Assembly (NCBI GenBank): GCA_021775385.1
Contig: JAJFHW010000317.1
Coordinates: 1 to 15,922 of the forward strand
Reading direction: 5' to 3'
Source of the DNA: Hyphomicrobiales bacterium
Lineage (GTDB): Bacteria; Pseudomonadota; Alphaproteobacteria; Rhizobiales; HXMU1428-3
Length of the DNA stretch: 15,922 nucleotides
The notes under the pieces were generated by a model. It had not been told where the DNA came from. It worked only from the letters and a program-made list of their open reading frames with translations, and searched no databases. The position numbers and the translations under genes were made by a program. Numbering within the stretch: position 1 is the stretch's first letter; each line of letters begins with the position of its first letter. Positions 9,121 to 14,566 of the stretch are shown one piece after another.

Positions 9121-9263
9121 TAGTGTAGTTTCAAAAAAACCTCTGTTGAAGCCAATTGGATATTCGTCTAAGAGCATGAGAAAAAGAACGAGAGCATGTC
9201 ACATATAATTGATATTCAATTCTAGGAAATAAGTAAATCTTCTGGATTCTTTTTGCGGATGCA

Positions 9264-9325
9264 GCTCCGGTTGCTTGTGGGCAACCTGAAGGAGCACTAA
9301 AAGAGTGGGCAACTGAAGGGGCTTT
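9264..9325 (+). repeat. Bulged hairpin repeat, copy A (plus half copy)
   Basis: Outer stem GCTCC (9264-9268) pairs with GGAGC (9291-9295); inner stem GGTTGC (9269-9274) pairs with GCAACC (9281-9286); loop TTGTGG; a one-sided TGAA bulge (9287-9290) separates the stems on the 3' side. A second right half (AGTGGGCAACTGAAGG) follows at 9304-9319 without its left arm. The same design recurs near era. Confidence 0.75.
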
Positions 9326-9375
9326 AAAAATGACTATCAATTACTTAAGAATTAGCTGGGGAGAATAGGTCCTTA

Positions 9376-9966
9376 ATGTTGTTTAAGCGTCGAGATAAAG
9401 CGTCCATATTAGAAGCAGTGCGAATTTTTTTATGGCCACGACGTAGTTGGTCACGCTCTGTAAATTATGTGATGCTTCGGGTCAATCGTTTAAGTGGCTC
9501 GGCTCATGCCATCGCTCTTGGTTGTGCAGTTGGAATATTTGTCTCATACTTGCCAATCATGGGGTTTCACTTTATTGCAGCGGCAGTAATAGCTTATATC
9601 GTTGGTGGTAACTTGTTAGCGTCCGCGCTCGGAACATTTTTCGGTAACCCAATCACTTTTCCGTTTATCTGGGCTTCAGCCTATAAATTTGGACACTGGA
9701 TTCTAGGAAATGAAGTAGGCGTATTCCGCGTTGCAGATTTGTTAGACACATTTTCAAACGGTATATTCTACGCAATTGATAATACATATGAGATTTATTT
9801 TAAACCAATGATGATTGGCGGTATTCCAGCCGGGTTTGTTTGCGGTTTTTTTGGGTACTTTATCATTAGAAAATTGGTTGAGAACTACCAAAGCCGCCGT
9901 GTAGAGTTATTAGCAGCCCGAGCACGTGAAGCTATATCGTCTGCGCCAGACAAACACAGAGCTTGA
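9376..9966 (+). CDS. DUF2062 inner-membrane protein
   Basis: This 196-residue protein belongs to the DUF2062 family: a basic N terminus with FLWPRRSWSRSVNY (about residues 18-31), a Gly/Ala-rich membrane segment (about 45-75) containing GxAVGIFVSYLP, the conserved FGNPITFPFIWASAY stretch (about 88-102), and a second membrane pair near 150-170. The C-terminal tail is charged and cytoplasmic-looking. The biochemical role of the family is not known to me. In many Hyphomicrobiales this gene stands directly before acpS, lepB, rnc, era and recO, the order found here. Its ATG has a weak AGGT site. acpS begins 52 bases after its stop, so they may share a transcript. Confidence 0.85.
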   Translation: MLFKRRDKASILEAVRIFLWPRRSWSRSVNYVMLRVNRLSGSAHAIALGCAVGIFVSYLPIMGFHFIAAAVIAYIVGGNLLASALGTFFGNPITFPFIWASAYKFGHWILGNEVGVFRVADLLDTFSNGIFYAIDNTYEIYFKPMMIGGIPAGFVCGFFGYFIIRKLVENYQSRRVELLAARAREAISSAPDKHRA

Positions 9967-10018
9967 AGAGCACGATGTTTAGCAACTGCTTGTAGGGTAA
10001 ATTTTTAGGTGATGATCT

Positions 10019-10420
10019 ATGATACTAGGAATTGGTAACGATATAATCGACGTCAGACGTATAGAAAAAACCATAGAAAAATATGGCGAGCGCTTTTTAA
10101 CGCGCGTCTTTACAGATCTAGAGAGGCTCAGATCTGAGAAAAAGCATCTCTCAGCTGCCTCATATGCCAAGCGTTTTGCAGCTAAAGAAGCTTGTTCAAA
10201 AGCTCTGGGAACCGGAATAGCCTCCGGCGTCGCCTGGAAAGACATGGGAGTGGTAAATAGCTCTTCTGGGGCCCCCTCAATGGAATTAACAGGAGGGGCA
10301 AAAGTGCAATTATTAAAAATGGTTCCAGATGGTCATAATCCTGTCATTCACCTAACAATAACTGATGATGGCCCAATGGCCCAGGCATTCGTCATTATTT
10401 CGGCACAAATCAAAGTTTAA
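10019..10420 (+). CDS. acpS: Holo-[acyl-carrier-protein] synthase AcpS
   Basis: AcpS transfers the 4'-phosphopantetheine arm of coenzyme A to a serine of acyl carrier protein, making it active for fatty acid synthesis. The 133-residue length is normal. Mg2+-binding motifs are present: [13 protein letters not shown] (residues 4-16, Asp8 as metal ligand) and [16 protein letters not shown] (51-66, Glu57 as second ligand). The C-terminal [15 protein letters not shown] strand pattern is also typical. AGGTGAT about 9 bases before the ATG supports the start. It lies between the DUF2062 gene and lepB as usual in alphaproteobacteria. A 263-base gap follows before lepB, with short palindromes such as AGCGC/GCGCT near 10523-10536 but no clear terminator. 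Confidence 0.95.
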
Positions 10421-10683
10421 TTTGTCTGAGTAGCCCAATTAAGACCTCAATTGAATAACTGTGCTACTTTTGTCCAGTTTTAGAGAATTAACTGATTATA
10501 ACAGAGATTTATTTGCAAACCTAAGCGCAAATGCGCTATATGGCACGTCTGGTAACTGGCTTGTTGAGCTGTGTACTTGCTAGATGAATTAGTACATTTT
10601 GTAAGCTAAAACTAACAGCCTGAATAAATTCAAGTCAAAATAGTCTGTTTAGAGCTATACTGACGTTTACAAGGAGTGAATAA

Positions 10684-11427
10684 ATGAGTGTTGACGTAGA
10701 GAAGAGCAGTACCTCTACCGATGAAGGATGGTGGGAGATTTTTAAAATCGTCTTTCATGCCATTCTCCTTGCGATCATTGTTCGCATTTTTATCATTCAA
10801 CCCTTTAATATTCCCTCTGGTTCTATGCAGGGCAACCTACTTGTTGGTGATTACTTATTCGTCAGTAAATTTAGCTATGGCTATAGCAAATATACCTTTG
10901 GAACGGATTTATTCTCAGGCCGCATCATCGCCAGTAAACCAGAGCGCGGCGATGTTGTTGTCTTCAAATTACCAAAAGATCCAACACAAGATTATATCAA
11001 ACGCGTCATTGGTCTTCCTGGCGATAAAGTCCAGATGATTGGCGGTATACTCCATATCAATGGAAACCCAATACCTAAAAAGAGAGATGGCCAGTTTGTA
11101 GAAGATTTAAGATCGACGCCAGTGGCCAGGTTCAGAGAGACATTACCAAATGGGGTGTCTTATCTTTCGCTAGACAGCAAGCCACATAATGGCAGGGCTT
11201 ATACAGACAACACGGATGTCTACACAGTTCCTGAAGGACATTACTTCATGATGGGTGATAATCGTGATAATTCGTCTGATAGCCGTGACCCAAGCGTGAG
11301 CTTTGTTCCGTTTGAAAATTTTGTTGGCAAAGCCCAACTGATCTTCTTTTCAAAAGGAGATACGACAGACCCCTCGACCGGCCTTTTCAACATTCGTTGG
11401 GCACGTATATTTAAAATAGTACGTTAG
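10684..11427 (+). CDS. lepB: Signal peptidase I LepB
   Basis: LepB is the inner-membrane peptidase that removes signal peptides from exported proteins. The 247-residue product has one membrane segment (about residues 20-38) and then the S26 catalytic domain facing the periplasm. The catalytic Ser is Ser47 in NIPSGSM; the general base is Lys106 in YIKRVIGLPGD (104-114); box E is GDNRDNSSDSRD. Box B reads SMQGNLLVGD, where SMxPTLxxGD is more common, a change away from the catalytic residues. AAGGAG at 10671-10676, 7 bases before ATG, is the best ribosome binding site in the window and fixes the start. rnc begins 15 bases after the stop, so lepB and rnc are very probably cotranscribed; lepB may have its own promoter in the 263-base gap upstream. 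Confidence 0.96.
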   Translation: MSVDVEKSSTSTDEGWWEIFKIVFHAILLAIIVRIFIIQPFNIPSGSMQGNLLVGDYLFVSKFSYGYSKYTFGTDLFSGRIIASKPERGDVVVFKLPKDPTQDYIKRVIGLPGDKVQMIGGILHINGNPIPKKRDGQFVEDLRSTPVARFRETLPNGVSYLSLDSKPHNGRAYTDNTDVYTVPEGHYFMMGDNRDNSSDSRDPSVSFVPFENFVGKAQLIFFSKGDTTDPSTGLFNIRWARIFKIVR

Positions 11428-11442
11428 TGGACTTATGCATTA

Positions 11443-12249
11443 ATGGACAAGGCAGACAAACCCGTAAGGATCGTAAACAAAGAGACCACCTCAAAAGGGA
11501 CTAAAAAGAAAAAGTCATCTTCAGGTAAGGGCCTTATTAGCAAGAGCGCTGAATTAAAAGCCCTTGAAACGAAGATAAACTACCAGTTCCAAGAAAGGTC
11601 TCTTTTAAGCTCAGCCTTAACCCATGCCAGCAGCATATCTCAAACTAAAAAAACGGGGCAAAGCCCTGATGAAGATAATGAACGTCTGGAATTCTTAGGT
11701 GACAGGGTTTTAGGGCTTTCAATTTCTGCCGTTCTAATAAAACTATACCCCGAAAGCCCTGAAGGTGATTTAGCTCGCCGTTATAATAATCTGGTACGAA
11801 GGCAAACCTGTACTGAGGTCGCAAAAGATTTAGACCTGGGGAAGTATCTAATTCTAAGCGCGGGTGAAGAACGCTCAGGTGGGCGCACAAAATCAACCAT
11901 TTTAGCCAATGCTATGGAAGCACTGTTGGGGGCGATTTTCCTTGATGGAGGATATGAAGCCGCCGATGAGATGATAAAGACATTTTGGCAAGAGAAAATT
12001 ACTGAAGGTGAGCAAATCGAACTTGATGCCAAAACAGCCCTTCAGGAATGGGCTCAAGGCCAAGGGTTTGACCTCCCACAATATACAAATCTTAACAGAA
12101 CAGGGCCAGATCATGACCCCATGTTTGAAACCAAAGTAACGGTTGAAGGTGTTGGTGATGGTGTGGGAAAAGGTCCATCAAAAAGAATAGCTGAACAAAT
12201 GGCTGCAAAGAACCTATTAGAAATAGAAAAAGTTTGGACCGAAGCTTAG
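11443..12249 (+). CDS. rnc: Ribonuclease III with Lys-rich N-terminal extension
   Basis: RNase III cuts double-stranded RNA, processing rRNA precursors and regulating mRNAs. The 268-residue product is longer than the usual 220-240: about 35 extra residues at the start include KKKKSSSGKG (21-30). The nuclease domain has NERLEFLGD (79-87), giving Glu83 and Asp87 (E. coli Glu41 and Asp45), and ANAMEALLGAIFLDGG (155-170), giving Glu159 (E. coli Glu117). The position of E. coli Asp114, also a metal ligand, is Asn156 here. A double-stranded RNA-binding domain covers about 195-262. It lies 15 bases after lepB. Downstream are a bulged hairpin and a tandem repeat array before era. The start is the first usable ATG; its ribosome binding site is weak. 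Confidence 0.94.
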   Translation: MDKADKPVRIVNKETTSKGTKKKKSSSGKGLISKSAELKALETKINYQFQERSLLSSALTHASSISQTKKTGQSPDEDNERLEFLGDRVLGLSISAVLIKLYPESPEGDLARRYNNLVRRQTCTEVAKDLDLGKYLILSAGEERSGGRTKSTILANAMEALLGAIFLDGGYEAADEMIKTFWQEKITEGEQIELDAKTALQEWAQGQGFDLPQYTNLNRTGPDHDPMFETKVTVEGVGDGVGKGPSKRIAEQMAAKNLLEIEKVWTEA

Positions 12250-12298
12250 CCTCCTAAAGAAAATTAGACATAAAAGACGTTCTAAGTTTACTATGAAT

Positions 12299-12332
12299 AA
12301 CCAGAACATAACACCTGAAGTGGTGTCTGGTT
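12299..12332 (+). other. Bulged hairpin after rnc, possible weak terminator
   Basis: AACCAG (12299-12304) pairs with CTGGTT (12327-12332) and ACACC (12311-12315) with GGTGT (12322-12326), around a 6-base loop, with a one-sided bulge AACATA on the 5' side. Three of the four Ts at 12331-12334 could act as a short U-tract, although two of them pair in the stem. It could partly end the lepB-rnc transcript. The function is inferred. Confidence 0.4.
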
Positions 12333-12345
12333 TTAGGGATGCTTA

Positions 12346-12490
12346 CACCGGTTGCTAGTGGGCAATCTGAAGGTGCACTAAAAAAGGCACCTGAATCACC
12401 AGCAAAATAGCGCGGATGCTCAGAGGGCATCTGAAGCACCAACAAAATAGTGCGGATGCTTTGTGGGCATCTGAAGCACCAACAAAAAAT
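12346..12490 (+). repeat. Bulged hairpin repeats, copies B, C and D in tandem
   Basis: Copy B: outer CACC (12346-12349)/GGTG (12372-12375), inner GGTTGC (12350-12355)/GCAATC (12362-12367) with one G-T pair, bulge TGAA. Copies C and D are exactly 40 bp apart, with inner GATGC/GCATC at 12415-12431 and 12455-12471 and only a 2-bp GC/GC outer stem. The tail CTGAAGCACCAACAAAA recurs at 40-bp steps (12391 diverged, 12431, 12471). B's right outer arm GGTGC can also pair with GCACC at 12387-12391, so two folds compete. The array ends 13 bases before the era start codon. Confidence 0.8.
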
Positions 12491-12503
12491 GAAAGAATTT
12501 TGA

Positions 12504-13484
12504 ATGACCACTTCAGATGACGATACGGCACCTGTTCAATCAATTGAACAAACAGATGCCACAGATGGAATGAATAAAACTGAAGAAGGTTTTAACACTA
12601 AATGTGGGTTCGTTGCTCTCATCGGTGCACCAAATGCAGGTAAGTCAACTTTGACCAATCGATTGGTGGGCACAAAAGTTTCAATCGTTACCAGAAAAGT
12701 TCAAACAACTAGAGCTCGGATCAGAGGTATTGCCATATTTGATGAAACACAAATCATCTTTGTGGACACTCCAGGAATTTTTGCTCCTAAAAGGCGTTTG
12801 GATAGGGCGATGGTCGATGCCGCTTGGGGAGGCGCAGCTGATGCTGATTTAGTGGTGCTACTGGTTGACGCCCAAAGAGGTCTGACTAAAGACGTTGCAA
12901 ACATTTTAAAGAGGCTAAAAGAAACAAAATACCCAATTGCTTTGGCGATCAATAAAATGGATCTAGTCCGCCGTGAAGATTTATTGAAACTGACCCAAGA
13001 CCTCACTGCAGATGTGAAATTTGATGAAGTTCTTTATATATCTGCTGAAAAAGGACAGGGTACCGGAGAACTTGTTGATTATTTAAAAACACGCTTACCA
13101 CTTAGCCCATGGTTATACCCCGAAGATCAATTAACAGATGCACCAATGCGCCATACAGCGGCTGAGATAACCAGAGAAAAACTGTTCTTACGGCTTCATG
13201 ATGAATTGCCATATGCCACGACTGTTGAGACCATTGATTGGAAAGTTAAAAAAGACAAATCAGTCCGCGTTGAGCAAGTGATTTACGTTGAGCGAGATAG
13301 TCAGAAAAAGATCGTGCTTGGTAAAAATGGTGATGCTGTAAAATCGATCTCTATGTCATCTAGAAGAGAATTAAGTGAAATTTTAGGAGTGCCAGTGCAT
13401 CTCTTCCTTTTTGTAAAAGTGAGAGAGCGCTGGGGCGATGACCCAGCTCGCTTCCGCGAAATGGGATTAGACTATACTAAATAG
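12504..13484 (+). CDS. era: Ribosome-assembly GTPase Era
   Basis: Era is a GTPase that binds the 3' end of 16S rRNA and helps 30S maturation at the inner membrane. The 326-residue product has a G domain with P-loop GAPNAGKST (residues 41-49), a QTTRARIRGI switch I region (67-76), DTPG (88-91) and NKMD (150-153), then a C-terminal KH domain with GKNGDAVKSI and LFLFVKVRERWGDD. It is about 25 residues longer than usual because of an acidic N-terminal extension (MTTSDDD...); ATG 12570 (Met23) would give a normal length. Neither start has a strong ribosome binding site. It stands between rnc and recO as usual, but each gap is filled by tandem hairpin repeats. The TAG stop at 13482-13484 directly abuts the next array. 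Confidence 0.95.
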   Translation: MTTSDDDTAPVQSIEQTDATDGMNKTEEGFNTKCGFVALIGAPNAGKSTLTNRLVGTKVSIVTRKVQTTRARIRGIAIFDETQIIFVDTPGIFAPKRRLDRAMVDAAWGGAADADLVVLLVDAQRGLTKDVANILKRLKETKYPIALAINKMDLVRREDLLKLTQDLTADVKFDEVLYISAEKGQGTGELVDYLKTRLPLSPWLYPEDQLTDAPMRHTAAEITREKLFLRLHDELPYATTVETIDWKVKKDKSVRVEQVIYVERDSQKKIVLGKNGDAVKSISMSSRRELSEILGVPVHLFLFVKVRERWGDDPARFREMGLDYTK

Positions 13485-13604
13485 CGCGGTTGCTAGTGGG
13501 CAAACGAAGCGTAACTAAGAAGACGCGGTTGCTAGTGGGCAAACGAAGCGCAACTAAGAAGACGCAGTTGCTCGTGCCGGTTGCTAGTGGGCAACTGAAG
13601 GCAC
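13485..13604 (+). repeat. Bulged hairpin repeats E1, E2, E3 after era
   Basis: E1 starts on the base after the era stop: outer CGC (13485-13487)/GCG (13509-13511), inner GGTTGC/GCAAAC with one mismatch, GAA bulge. E2 is the same 39 bp later (13524). A third left end at 13563, again 39 bp on, runs into E3: outer GTGCC (13574-13578)/GGCAC (13600-13604), inner GGTTGC (13579-13584)/GCAACT (13591-13596), loop TAGTGG. A decayed GCCGGTAACTAA fragment follows near 13616-13627. All copies have the sense orientation of era and recO. Confidence 0.8.
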
Positions 13605-13650
13605 ACGAAAAAAGAGCCGGTAACTAAAAAAAGTAATAACACGAAGAGGG

Positions 13651-13742
13651 AGCTCAGCCCAATTCGGGCTGAGGGACATGACGCCAAGGGCGTCCGGTGC
13701 CTAGCGCCGCCCCTCGGAGGCCCAAGCGCCTTAAGCGCTTGG
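13651..13742 (+). repeat. GC-rich multi-hairpin element before recO
   Basis: This block of about 90 bases is visibly richer in G+C than its surroundings and folds almost completely: CTCAGCCC/GGGCTGAG (13653-13660/13666-13673), ACGCC/GGCGT (13681-13685/13689-13693), CGGTGC/GCGCCG with one G-T pair (13695-13700/13704-13709), and CCAAGCGC/GCGCTTGG (13722-13729/13735-13742). It ends 20 bases before the recO start. The design recalls intergenic mosaic elements of rhizobia (RIME type), by architecture only. It could instead be a structured leader of recO. Confidence 0.65.
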
Positions 13743-13762
13743 AATAGCCGTGAGAGATAAGT

Positions 13763-14566
13763 ATGGAATGGAGAGATGATGGCATCGTGCTTTCAATAAA
13801 AGCACACGGAGAAACGAGTGTCCTGATTGATCTCTTCACGTCTGAGCGAGGGCGTCATTCTGGGCTTGTCCGCGGTGGTAAATCAAGAAAGATACGCCCC
13901 ATCTTACAAGTAGGCAATGTTGTGAGCGCAACATGGCGTGCTCGGCTTGATGAGCATCTCGGCAGCGCCACAGTTGAAATGGTCGAGCCTGTTGCTTCTC
14001 GTCTATTTGATGACCCGTTAGCTCTCGCGGGGCTTTCATCACTGTGCAGTTTATTGTCTCTCTTTCCAGAACGTGCCCCCCATCAAGGCCTCTATAAAGG
14101 CGCAAAACTCGTTCTCTCTCATATGGAAGATGATCAAATTTGGCCAGGGCTTCTAGTACGATTTGAAATGGAAGTGTTATCAGAGCTTGGCTTTCGATTG
14201 GATTTTTCAGAATGCGCGGCAACAGGCACAAAAGAAGAACTTGTTTATGTGTCACCAAAATCAGGAAGGGCCGTGTCACGAGGCGCGGGCTTACCCTATA
14301 AAGAAAAACTTCTTGAGCTTCCTCCGTTTTTAAGAGGAGAAAAAGAAAACGGCGTCAGTGATCAAGATATTTTAAATGGTTTTGCACTAACTGGCTTTTT
14401 CTTTGAACGGTACATTTTTAAGCCTGATCAGCAAGCAGGTTTCAGCGCTGGGAATTTTAAAAACATCAATAAGGGAACTGATCATTTTGGTGTACCAAGG
14501 TGTGAAGCAGCCCGAAGTAGTTTTTTAAAACGCTATAAAAAAATACGAACCCCTGAAAATTTATGA
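13763..14566 (+). CDS. recO: DNA repair protein RecO
   Basis: RecO works in the RecF recombination pathway: it binds SSB and DNA, anneals strands and, with RecR, loads RecA. The 267-residue product begins MEWRDDGIVL with an N-terminal OB fold (about residues 1-80, including RGRHSGLVRGGKSR and WRARLDEHLG), then a helical domain with CAATGTKEELVYVSPKSGRAVSR (two parts, about 153-175), the pattern of alphaproteobacterial RecO. The C-terminal tail after FFFERYIF is somewhat longer and more basic than usual. The start is clear from MEWRD; GAGA about 8 bases upstream is a modest ribosome binding site. It closes the acpS-to-recO cluster and ends 10 bases before the convergent hydrolase gene, with no terminator in the gap. 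Confidence 0.92.
   Translation: MEWRDDGIVLSIKAHGETSVLIDLFTSERGRHSGLVRGGKSRKIRPILQVGNVVSATWRARLDEHLGSATVEMVEPVASRLFDDPLALAGLSSLCSLLSLFPERAPHQGLYKGAKLVLSHMEDDQIWPGLLVRFEMEVLSELGFRLDFSECAATGTKEELVYVSPKSGRAVSRGAGLPYKEKLLELPPFLRGEKENGVSDQDILNGFALTGFFFERYIFKPDQQAGFSAGNFKNINKGTDHFGVPRCEAARSSFLKRYKKIRTPENL

Follow-up and report, generated by a model that had tools for sequence, protein, structure and literature searches.

Seven copies of a short bulged hairpin, here named F1, lie on the + strand of contig JAJFHW010000317.1 (assembly GCA_021775385.1), a 15,922-nt stretch from a Hyphomicrobiales bacterium that is called the window below. On balance, we lean towards the view that F1 is a family of short (~40 nt) non-autonomous mobile hairpins of one uncultured Hyphomicrobiales genus, and that it inserts at a single-stranded stage that is asymmetric between the two strands. 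In this proposal, new copies would enter while one particular strand of the chromosome is single-stranded and folded; because of this mode of entry, exposed hairpin loops would be the preferred landing sites and the orientation would be fixed. Arrays would grow afterwards by duplication. Promoters and most coding sequence would be intolerant of insertions, which would leave 3′ and convergent gaps as the main places where copies persist. The window belongs to G000, a draft of 2.88 Mb in 400 contigs with 79% completeness. The other genomes, including G001 to G007 of the same genus, are drafts too, and gene calling relied on a simple script.

Copies, fold and distribution of F1

The window copies were read directly and are located before the DUF2062 gene, in the rnc-era gap and in the era-recO gap. 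Copy 1 (9264..9302) has the order GCTCC-GGTTGC-loop-GCAACC-TGAA-GGAGC-tail and is nested within another F1 copy, of which the 5′ inner arm GGATGC (9257..9262) and the 3′ half GTGG-GCAAC-TGAA-GGGGC (9305..9322) are found on either side. Copy 2 (12346..12383), in the rnc-era gap, has the outer stem CACC/GGTG. It is followed by copy 3 (12410..12447), with the inner stem GGATGC/GCATC and a loop longer by one base, and by copy 4 (12450..12487), which reads GTGC-GGATGC ... GCATC-TGAA-GCAC. Copy 5 (13485..13520), in the era-recO gap, and copy 6 (13524..13559) form a tandem of 97% identity with a 39-nt step, both with CGC/GCG outer arms. Copy 7 (13574..13611; GTGCC/GGCAC) is preceded by a 5′ half, GCAGTTGC, at 13564-13571. 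The initial annotation of this DNA had described at least six hairpins of one shared design, and its outer arms (GCTCC/GGAGC, CACC/GGTG, CGC/GCG twice, GTGCC/GGCAC) agree with our reading. The paired inner swap from GTTGC/GCAAC to GATGC/GCATC, for which it gave no coordinates, was located in the copies at 12410 and 12450.

Conservation covers ~40 nt, from a point ~6 nt 5′ of the inner stem to the A-rich tail, ~13 nt beyond the bulge, and includes the loop and the TGAA bulge. Pairing was examined in 343 unique copies with at most two core mismatches and a recognisable bulge, bulge-less copies being dropped. Outer pairs 2, 3 and 4 were formed in 269, 250 and 266 of these copies, against 150, 134 and 138 after shuffling. 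In an alignment of 59 copies, in which the misalignment of three or four rows from the window made these count as unpaired, 91.7% of cells were paired (79.3% shuffled) and the covariation score was 0.304 (0.117 shuffled), a value that none of 500 shuffles reached. In the same alignment, pairs changed on both sides showed no excess (4 against 3.5 shuffled, 236 of 500 shuffles being as high). The idea that paired changes have kept the fold is borne out by covariation beyond that of the shuffles, mainly in the outer stem. Several copies have a further inner stem, GGTTTC/GAAACC. Across the 343 copies the inner stem contains 53 G-T pairs and 7 A-C mismatches, and this asymmetry favours the strand drawn in the initial annotation as the folding strand. 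Outer pair 3 is G-A in 43 of the 343 copies, and outer pair 2 is A-G in 42. Copies with the outer stem GCGAC/GGAGC contain a tandem G-A motif, which is stable on one strand only.

The genome-wide search that the initial annotation had called for found many further copies. The core GGWTGCNNRNGGGCAWC with at most one mismatch gave 245 matches in G000 and 0 for the reversed pattern. The counts in G001 to G007 were 13, 338, 282, 21, 38, 294 and 100, with 0 or 1 for the reversed control in each, and 53 genomes of other families gave 1 to 44 matches against 0 to 13 in the control. F1 hairpins are therefore real, well beyond chance and, as far as tested, F1 is abundant solely in this genus among the genomes covered. 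A covariance model was applied to 150 first-look candidates per genome, so that its larger counts are lower bounds: at least 164 matches in G000, 162 in G002, 158 in G003 and 159 in G006. G007, G005, G004 and G001 gave 133, 48, 27 and 4. An exact longer pattern was present in at least 93 stretches across genome contigs; among the matches listed were three Hyphomicrobiales metagenome-assembled genomes and three records placed in Hyphomicrobiaceae or Hyphomicrobium by label only. The named records carrying the pattern are metagenome-assembled Hyphomicrobiales. Carriage by phages was rejected, as one exact F1 pattern had 0 matches among viral contigs.

The initial annotation had recognised no named repeat family. 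Rfam likewise gave 0 matches at the gathering threshold for the whole window and 0 matches at E≤1 for 13440-13790, which holds F1 copies and a second repeat, F2. Within limited libraries, no description of F1-type repeats was found in the literature on loop-nested or strand-biased repeats or on this genus. We know of no repeat family that explains hairpin repeats nesting in loops and keeping to one strand.

Nested copies and copies within genes

A complete F1 copy between the halves of another F1, as at copy 1, was found in 13 distinct cases (23 rows, 10 cases being doubled at one-base offsets). F1 rows with an orphan 3′ half after them had a 5′ half before them in 23 of 43 instances, compared with 43 of 356 control copies. 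The outer arms of the interrupted hosts were paired in 77 of 92 cells against 64.5 when permuted, a test that the doubled rows inflate. F1 copies also lie within the loops of F2 hairpins. In the era-recO gap, the loop of the last F2 hairpin contains F1 in G002 and G003, and in the window the loop is short and without F1. In the rnc-era gap, F1 is present in the window and in G006 and absent from G002, G003, G007, G004, G001 and G005. The flanks of copy 2 in this gap (around 12337-12342 and 12386-12400) are able to pair and are possibly a decayed host hairpin. For the isolated copies (211 of 448), flanks pairing at −15 kcal/mol or below were found in 12, compared with a permuted mean of 4.0 and a maximum of 8 in 30 permutations.

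Copies inside genes are a small minority. In-frame copies occur in DUF3419 genes (two records), in NadA before its domain and in one open reading frame without a Pfam match, and an antisense copy lies within HisH. When HisH was aligned with a HisH of known structure, the alignment broke between residues 137 and 175, the F1 site. The other in-gene calls were short open reading frames or start-codon choices of the simple gene caller, one of them beside RecR. The initial annotation had held that copies inside conserved coding sequence would speak against the family, and a few such copies exist (DUF3419, NadA, HisH). We read them as a signal of mobility that does not refute the F1 family. The antisense copy in hisH was seen at three loci (L117, L148 and G002:C2 361572-362252), and in G002 it opposes the strand rule described below. 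The two DUF3419 genes (L108:5880-7262 and L088:5448-6863) contain differing sets of F1 at one internal place.

Strand polarity and the likely replication origin

Orientation was followed mainly in G002, of which 0-240 kb of contig C1, all of C2, C3 minus a 3-kb hole and additional 20-kb samples were read; the G000 samples and a set of eight-kb tiles were selected for holding copies. In C3, 56 of 57 F1 copies lie on one strand (1+/56−) among genes divided 180+/163−, and C2 has 44+/2−. An alternative match rule gave 52+/3− in C2 and 1+/54− in C3. When up to three mismatches were included, 300 kb of G002 C3 contained 2+/63− (genes 133+/132−) and 357 kb of G003 C1 contained 45+/3− (genes 157+/168−). 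Exact matches opposing the majority of their contig numbered 6 in the first 100 of 152 in G002 and 4 in the first 100 of 140 in G003. In C4 of G002, 9 of 9 copies among the matches listed were on one strand. In C2, an F2 loop and hisH each contain one of the two minority copies; the one of C3 lies in an F2 loop, and C1 (10+/4−) has one in an F2 loop and three that are un-F1-like by eye. Both orientations were found in 4 of 143 gaps.

F2 is polar too, with 5+/0− in C1, 19+/0− in C2 and 0+/14− in C3 of G002 and 13+/0− in C1 of G003. Single F2 head motifs against the polarity numbered 3 in G002 C1 and 1 in C3, and one C1 sample had F2 head and tail opposite. Among 93 eight-kb tiles (8 mixed; ties left out), TA skew separated 52 mainly '+' from 37 mainly '−' tiles (p=5.6e-15), and GC skew separated them less (p=1e-4). 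At 21 loci of G000, F1 strand was separated by TA skew (p=3e-4) and not by GC skew (p=0.32).

F1 orientation tracks the chromosome strand more than it tracks genes. In whole stretches of G002 (1.06 Mb, majority-strand copies only), F1 occupied 23 of 209 gaps whose two flanking genes share the strand of the element and 16 of 218 whose genes are both on the other strand (p=0.24); the corresponding values for F2 were 17 of 209 and 17 of 218. Among loci selected for their repeats and pooled, gaps between co-directional genes whose copies share one orientation had them on the strand of the genes in 67 of 88 instances (p=9e-7); for G000 alone the figure was 21 of 23. The unselected G002 sample outweighs the selected pool, but in G000 the strand of the genes may have some influence. 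Orientation with the genes was thus rejected as a rule. The statement in the initial annotation that all copies lie in gaps and follow the genes is true within the window and does not extend to the genome. The type of gap did matter in the G002 stretches: F1 was present in 16 of 99 convergent and 6 of 153 divergent gaps (p=0.001), and F2 in 22 of 99 and 5 of 153.

These results bear on the explanation that F1 works at the RNA level, as hairpins in transcripts that selection maintains for a role in mRNA stability, processing or termination. The covarying fold, the strand asymmetry of the inner stem, the enrichment in convergent gaps and the gene-strand copies of the selected pool agree with it. 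We nevertheless consider it unlikely, in view of the lack of a significant gene-strand effect in the 1.06 Mb of G002, the uniform orientation of F1 across hundreds of kb with mixed genes, the A-rich stretch rather than a T-run 3′ of the hairpin and the few copies within genes.

The polarity was also compared with the replication origin. The hemE/maf gap, which we take to be the origin in Rhizobiales, lies around 344 kb in G002 C2 (L221), between hemE (342694-343728, −) and a series from 344196 that comprises a PEP-synthase-type regulator, maf, aroE, coaE, dnaQ and secB. This locus is likely to be the origin of G002; hemE and maf are given among origin indicator genes in PMC3794950. Left of hemE, GC skew is −0.125 and TA skew −0.129, with F1 at 27+/0− and F2 heads at 14+/0−. 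To the right, the skews are −0.015 and −0.098, with F1 at 17+/2− and F2 heads at 18+/0−. The polarity of F1 and F2 and the TA skew do not change sign across hemE, and GC skew steps in size only. Simple replichore symmetry, by which a flip is expected at the origin, was rejected since no flip occurs in G002. A recent inversion of one arm as the cause of the missing flip is disfavoured, because opposite-strand copies are rare right of hemE (2 of 19; one in an F2 loop, one in hisH).

Further genomes gave a similar step in the size of GC skew at the hemE/maf locus, with little change in TA skew. In G003 C14, GC skew was −0.14 and −0.16 left of hemE and −0.03 to 0.00 in three tiles placed to the right; the left 16 kb contained no F1 or F2 and is thus uninformative on polarity. 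In G004 C3, skew rose from +0.07 to +0.09 to values of +0.12 to +0.145 past hemE (103 kb), and in G004 C1 it passed from −0.01 to −0.07 to values of −0.13 to −0.15 between 0.62 and 0.75 Mb, with constant sign in both. Among the matches listed for G004, F2 had 4+/0− in C1 (0.25, 0.73, 0.73 and 1.18 Mb), 1+/14− in C2 and 0+/2− in C3 (89 and 335 kb, one either side of hemE). Against a constant skew sign, the first 20 kb of G004 C2 had GC −0.036 and TA −0.015 and the contig was positive from 150 kb on, so that a sign change exists somewhere. Four samples of G002 C4 gave GC skews of +0.011, +0.118, −0.045 and −0.021. Eight-kb samples at hemE of three genomes of other families (G026, G032 and G019) had mostly weak skew and hence provide no working control. 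Contig coverage of one metagenome-assembled genome, used as a replication gauge, allowed 8 of 25 contigs to be placed, too few for use. As contigs cannot be oriented to one another, constancy of skew and polarity around the circle would be an extrapolation from single contigs.

One tentative and rather unlikely explanation is that replication of the main chromosome proceeds mostly in one direction in this genus, or that one strand is exposed chromosome-wide in another manner, and that F1 and F2 record this. One-directional copying would account for the constant strand of F1 and F2 and the constant skew sign across the origin. It does not by itself explain the change in size of GC skew at hemE. 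A combination of modes may also be at work, as may a rearrangement of long standing or a different process acting on one strand.

We give little credence to the explanation that F1 is a chromosome-polarity signal, its orientation being selected and read by a translocase, primase or segregation factor in the manner of KOPS or Chi. The strong polarity (56 of 57 in C3 and 44 of 46 in C2 of G002), to which F2 also conforms, would be expected of such signals. Signals of the KOPS or Chi kind reverse their orientation at the origin and the terminus, and F1, unlike them, does not flip at hemE in G002. By the covariance model, with its capped scoring, species of this one genus range from 4 to more than 160 copies of F1, and nesting and insertion in genes are unexpected of signals.

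Accompanying repeats and possible modes of spread

F2 is represented in the window by one copy of ~117 nt (13641..13757, + strand), a multi-hairpin repeat with the linkers ACGAAGAGGGAG, GGACATG, CCGG, CCCCTCGGAGGC and AATAGCCGTGAGAGA between covarying hairpins. The pooled loci, some of which overlap, contained 98 head-and-tail copies, and 51 unique short ones were aligned. Over 23 pairs the stems had 1085 Watson-Crick, 49 G-T, 14 A-C and 20 other cells. Double changes were found in 15 of 27 predicted pairs (37 copies), and the linkers are near-invariant. An F2 model, for which no more than 24 candidates were scored in each genome, matched at least 16 of 150 genomes of the order, namely all 5 that had been sampled from the genus and 11 of the remaining 145; matches outside the genus, in other families, were weaker (best 2.4e-12). 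An empty-site comparison placed 83 pairs from 89 queries, of which at least 14 were of equal size (within 12 bases) and at least 30 had more than 90 extra bases in the query, much of it tangled. F2 may represent either a mobile repeat or a structured RNA that has not been described. The loop of F2 hairpin 3 was seen to contain a third hairpin repeat, F3, which has ACAAGATCAGCCCGAACGGAGCGAAGCGAGTACGGATAAGCTGATCG and then an A-rich end; one instance is near 390.7 kb of G002 C2. F3 loci occur in G002 and G003, with a strand pattern that is seemingly less strict.

A search for a mobiliser covered two types of protein in the eight genus genomes. The Y1 transposase domain Y1_Tnp (PF01797) had a match in one of the eight and none in copy-rich G000 (79% complete), G002 and G006. 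The repeats on either side of both Y1 transposase genes are inverted ones of the AATTACGGTGACAGT type and not F1. The two genes resemble those of repetitive extragenic palindromic (REP)-associated tyrosine transposases (RAYT) and are located at L124 and L125 (G003:C1 11.5-15.4 kb) amid small open reading frames that look like a putative polymorphic toxin/immunity cluster. The reverse transcriptase domain RVT_1 was found in two of the eight genomes only, G006 and G004. An origin of F1 from a group II intron or retroelement was rejected, RVT_1 not being common to the copy-rich genomes.

Several observations weigh against F1 as a mobile hairpin that enters loops on one strand. At 9264 the inner third pair of the split host is an A-A mismatch, so this host is degenerate or chimeric. 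The host's inner third pair is mismatched in 5 of the 13 nested cases, and its match in 13 of 23 rows (8 of 13 cases) does not differ significantly from the permuted 10.8 (p=0.29). At −10 kcal/mol, 49 of the 211 isolated copies had pairing flanks against 35.2 permuted (maximum 44), a small excess, and the majority of isolated copies have no recognisable host hairpin. Since the flank-pairing excess is small at weaker thresholds, loop insertion would be one preferred route, with others also seen. No target-site duplication was recognised by eye among the alignments seen, and several F1 insertions replace a few loop bases. Outer pairs 1-4 lack the G-T excess of the inner stem (50 G-T and 55 A-C), and the few F1-like matches in the G004 samples are split between the strands (3+/4−). 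Tandem duplication accounts for part of the copy number. No mobiliser was found in the Y1 and RVT_1 searches, other recombinases not being searched.

The last two points lead to the explanation that errors of host replication alone (tandem slippage, gene conversion and hairpin-directed template switching) produced F1 with no dedicated mobility. F1 arrays have steps of 33 to 41 nt, and at one site G002 and G003 differ in length by exactly one 40-nt unit. A strand-fixed template switch would yield polarity, and the two types of mobiliser searched are not shared among the genomes. This explanation is improbable, because solitary copies are scattered in unrelated gaps and genes (a single copy in 85 of 143 gaps of the pooled repeat-selected loci) and long-range copying is needed to place them there.

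Least probable, and only a faint prospect, is that F1 elements are REP- or REPIN-like and moved by a RAYT that was lost or is unrecognised: short bulged hairpins, hundreds of copies, a location mostly in gaps and a strand bias fitting single-strand transposition agree with it, but Y1_Tnp is present in one of eight genomes without F1 flanks, GTAG shows no excess at F1 ends (23 forward and 15 reverse of 343, with 28.2 and 22.6 expected), and F1 neighbours within 150 nt are head-to-tail in 149 instances and opposite in 7, where REPs mainly form inverted pairs (PMC3116915, PMC3733652). Of the earlier interpretation, the hairpin family, its kept fold, its many copies and the absence of an Rfam match stand, and the RAYT connection and the gene-orientation rule do not.

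F1 shares features with several known elements. Rickettsia palindromic elements are also alphaproteobacterial hairpins and also occur in-frame in genes, as do a few F1 copies. They are about 100-150 nt long, unlike F1, which is ~40 nt, arrayed and strand-polar. The CGTC-tagged REPs of alphaproteobacteria (PMC3733652) are, like F1, short and palindromic, sometimes intragenic and mostly in downstream or convergent gaps, and they have no known dedicated transposase. For F1, the searches covered Y1_Tnp and RVT_1, neither of which is shared among the genus genomes. F1 differs from them in lacking the CGTC tag (11 and 20 of 343 copies, with 23.6 and 43.6 expected) and in its one-sided TGAA bulge, head-to-tail arrangement rather than inverted dimers, loop nesting and restriction to one strand. 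REPINs and RAYT-associated REPs are likewise non-autonomous, hairpin-forming and present in hundreds of copies (PMC3116915), but for F1 no RAYT link was found, inverted doublets do not predominate and GTAG is not in excess. The mitochondrial hairpin elements of yeast (GC clusters, PMC4478555) and of sponges (RHEs, PMC2800124) are small mobile hairpins of unsettled mechanism with merging or tandem copies. F1 resides on a bacterial chromosome, and its loop nesting and fixed strand are not mentioned for those elements in the relevant sections of the two papers. IS200/IS605 elements are similar in outline to what is proposed for F1, with a hairpin recognised on one strand and insertion tied to single strands exposed by replication (PMC6006769). 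A polarity set by the replication fork would be expected of an element of this type; F1 is strongly strand-polar and does not flip across the inferred G002 origin, and 7 of the 8 genus genomes have no Y1 transposase match.

Bacteria commonly carry short hairpin repeats, but how those lacking a transposase spread is an open question, stated as such for the CGTC repeats (PMC3733652). With its landing in hairpin loops and its long-range fixed strand, F1 makes this question testable. One-directional replication has been shown experimentally for the secondary chromosome of Pseudoalteromonas, in what was called the first such demonstration (PMC7858055). If true, one-directional copying in the genus studied here would concern a main chromosome.

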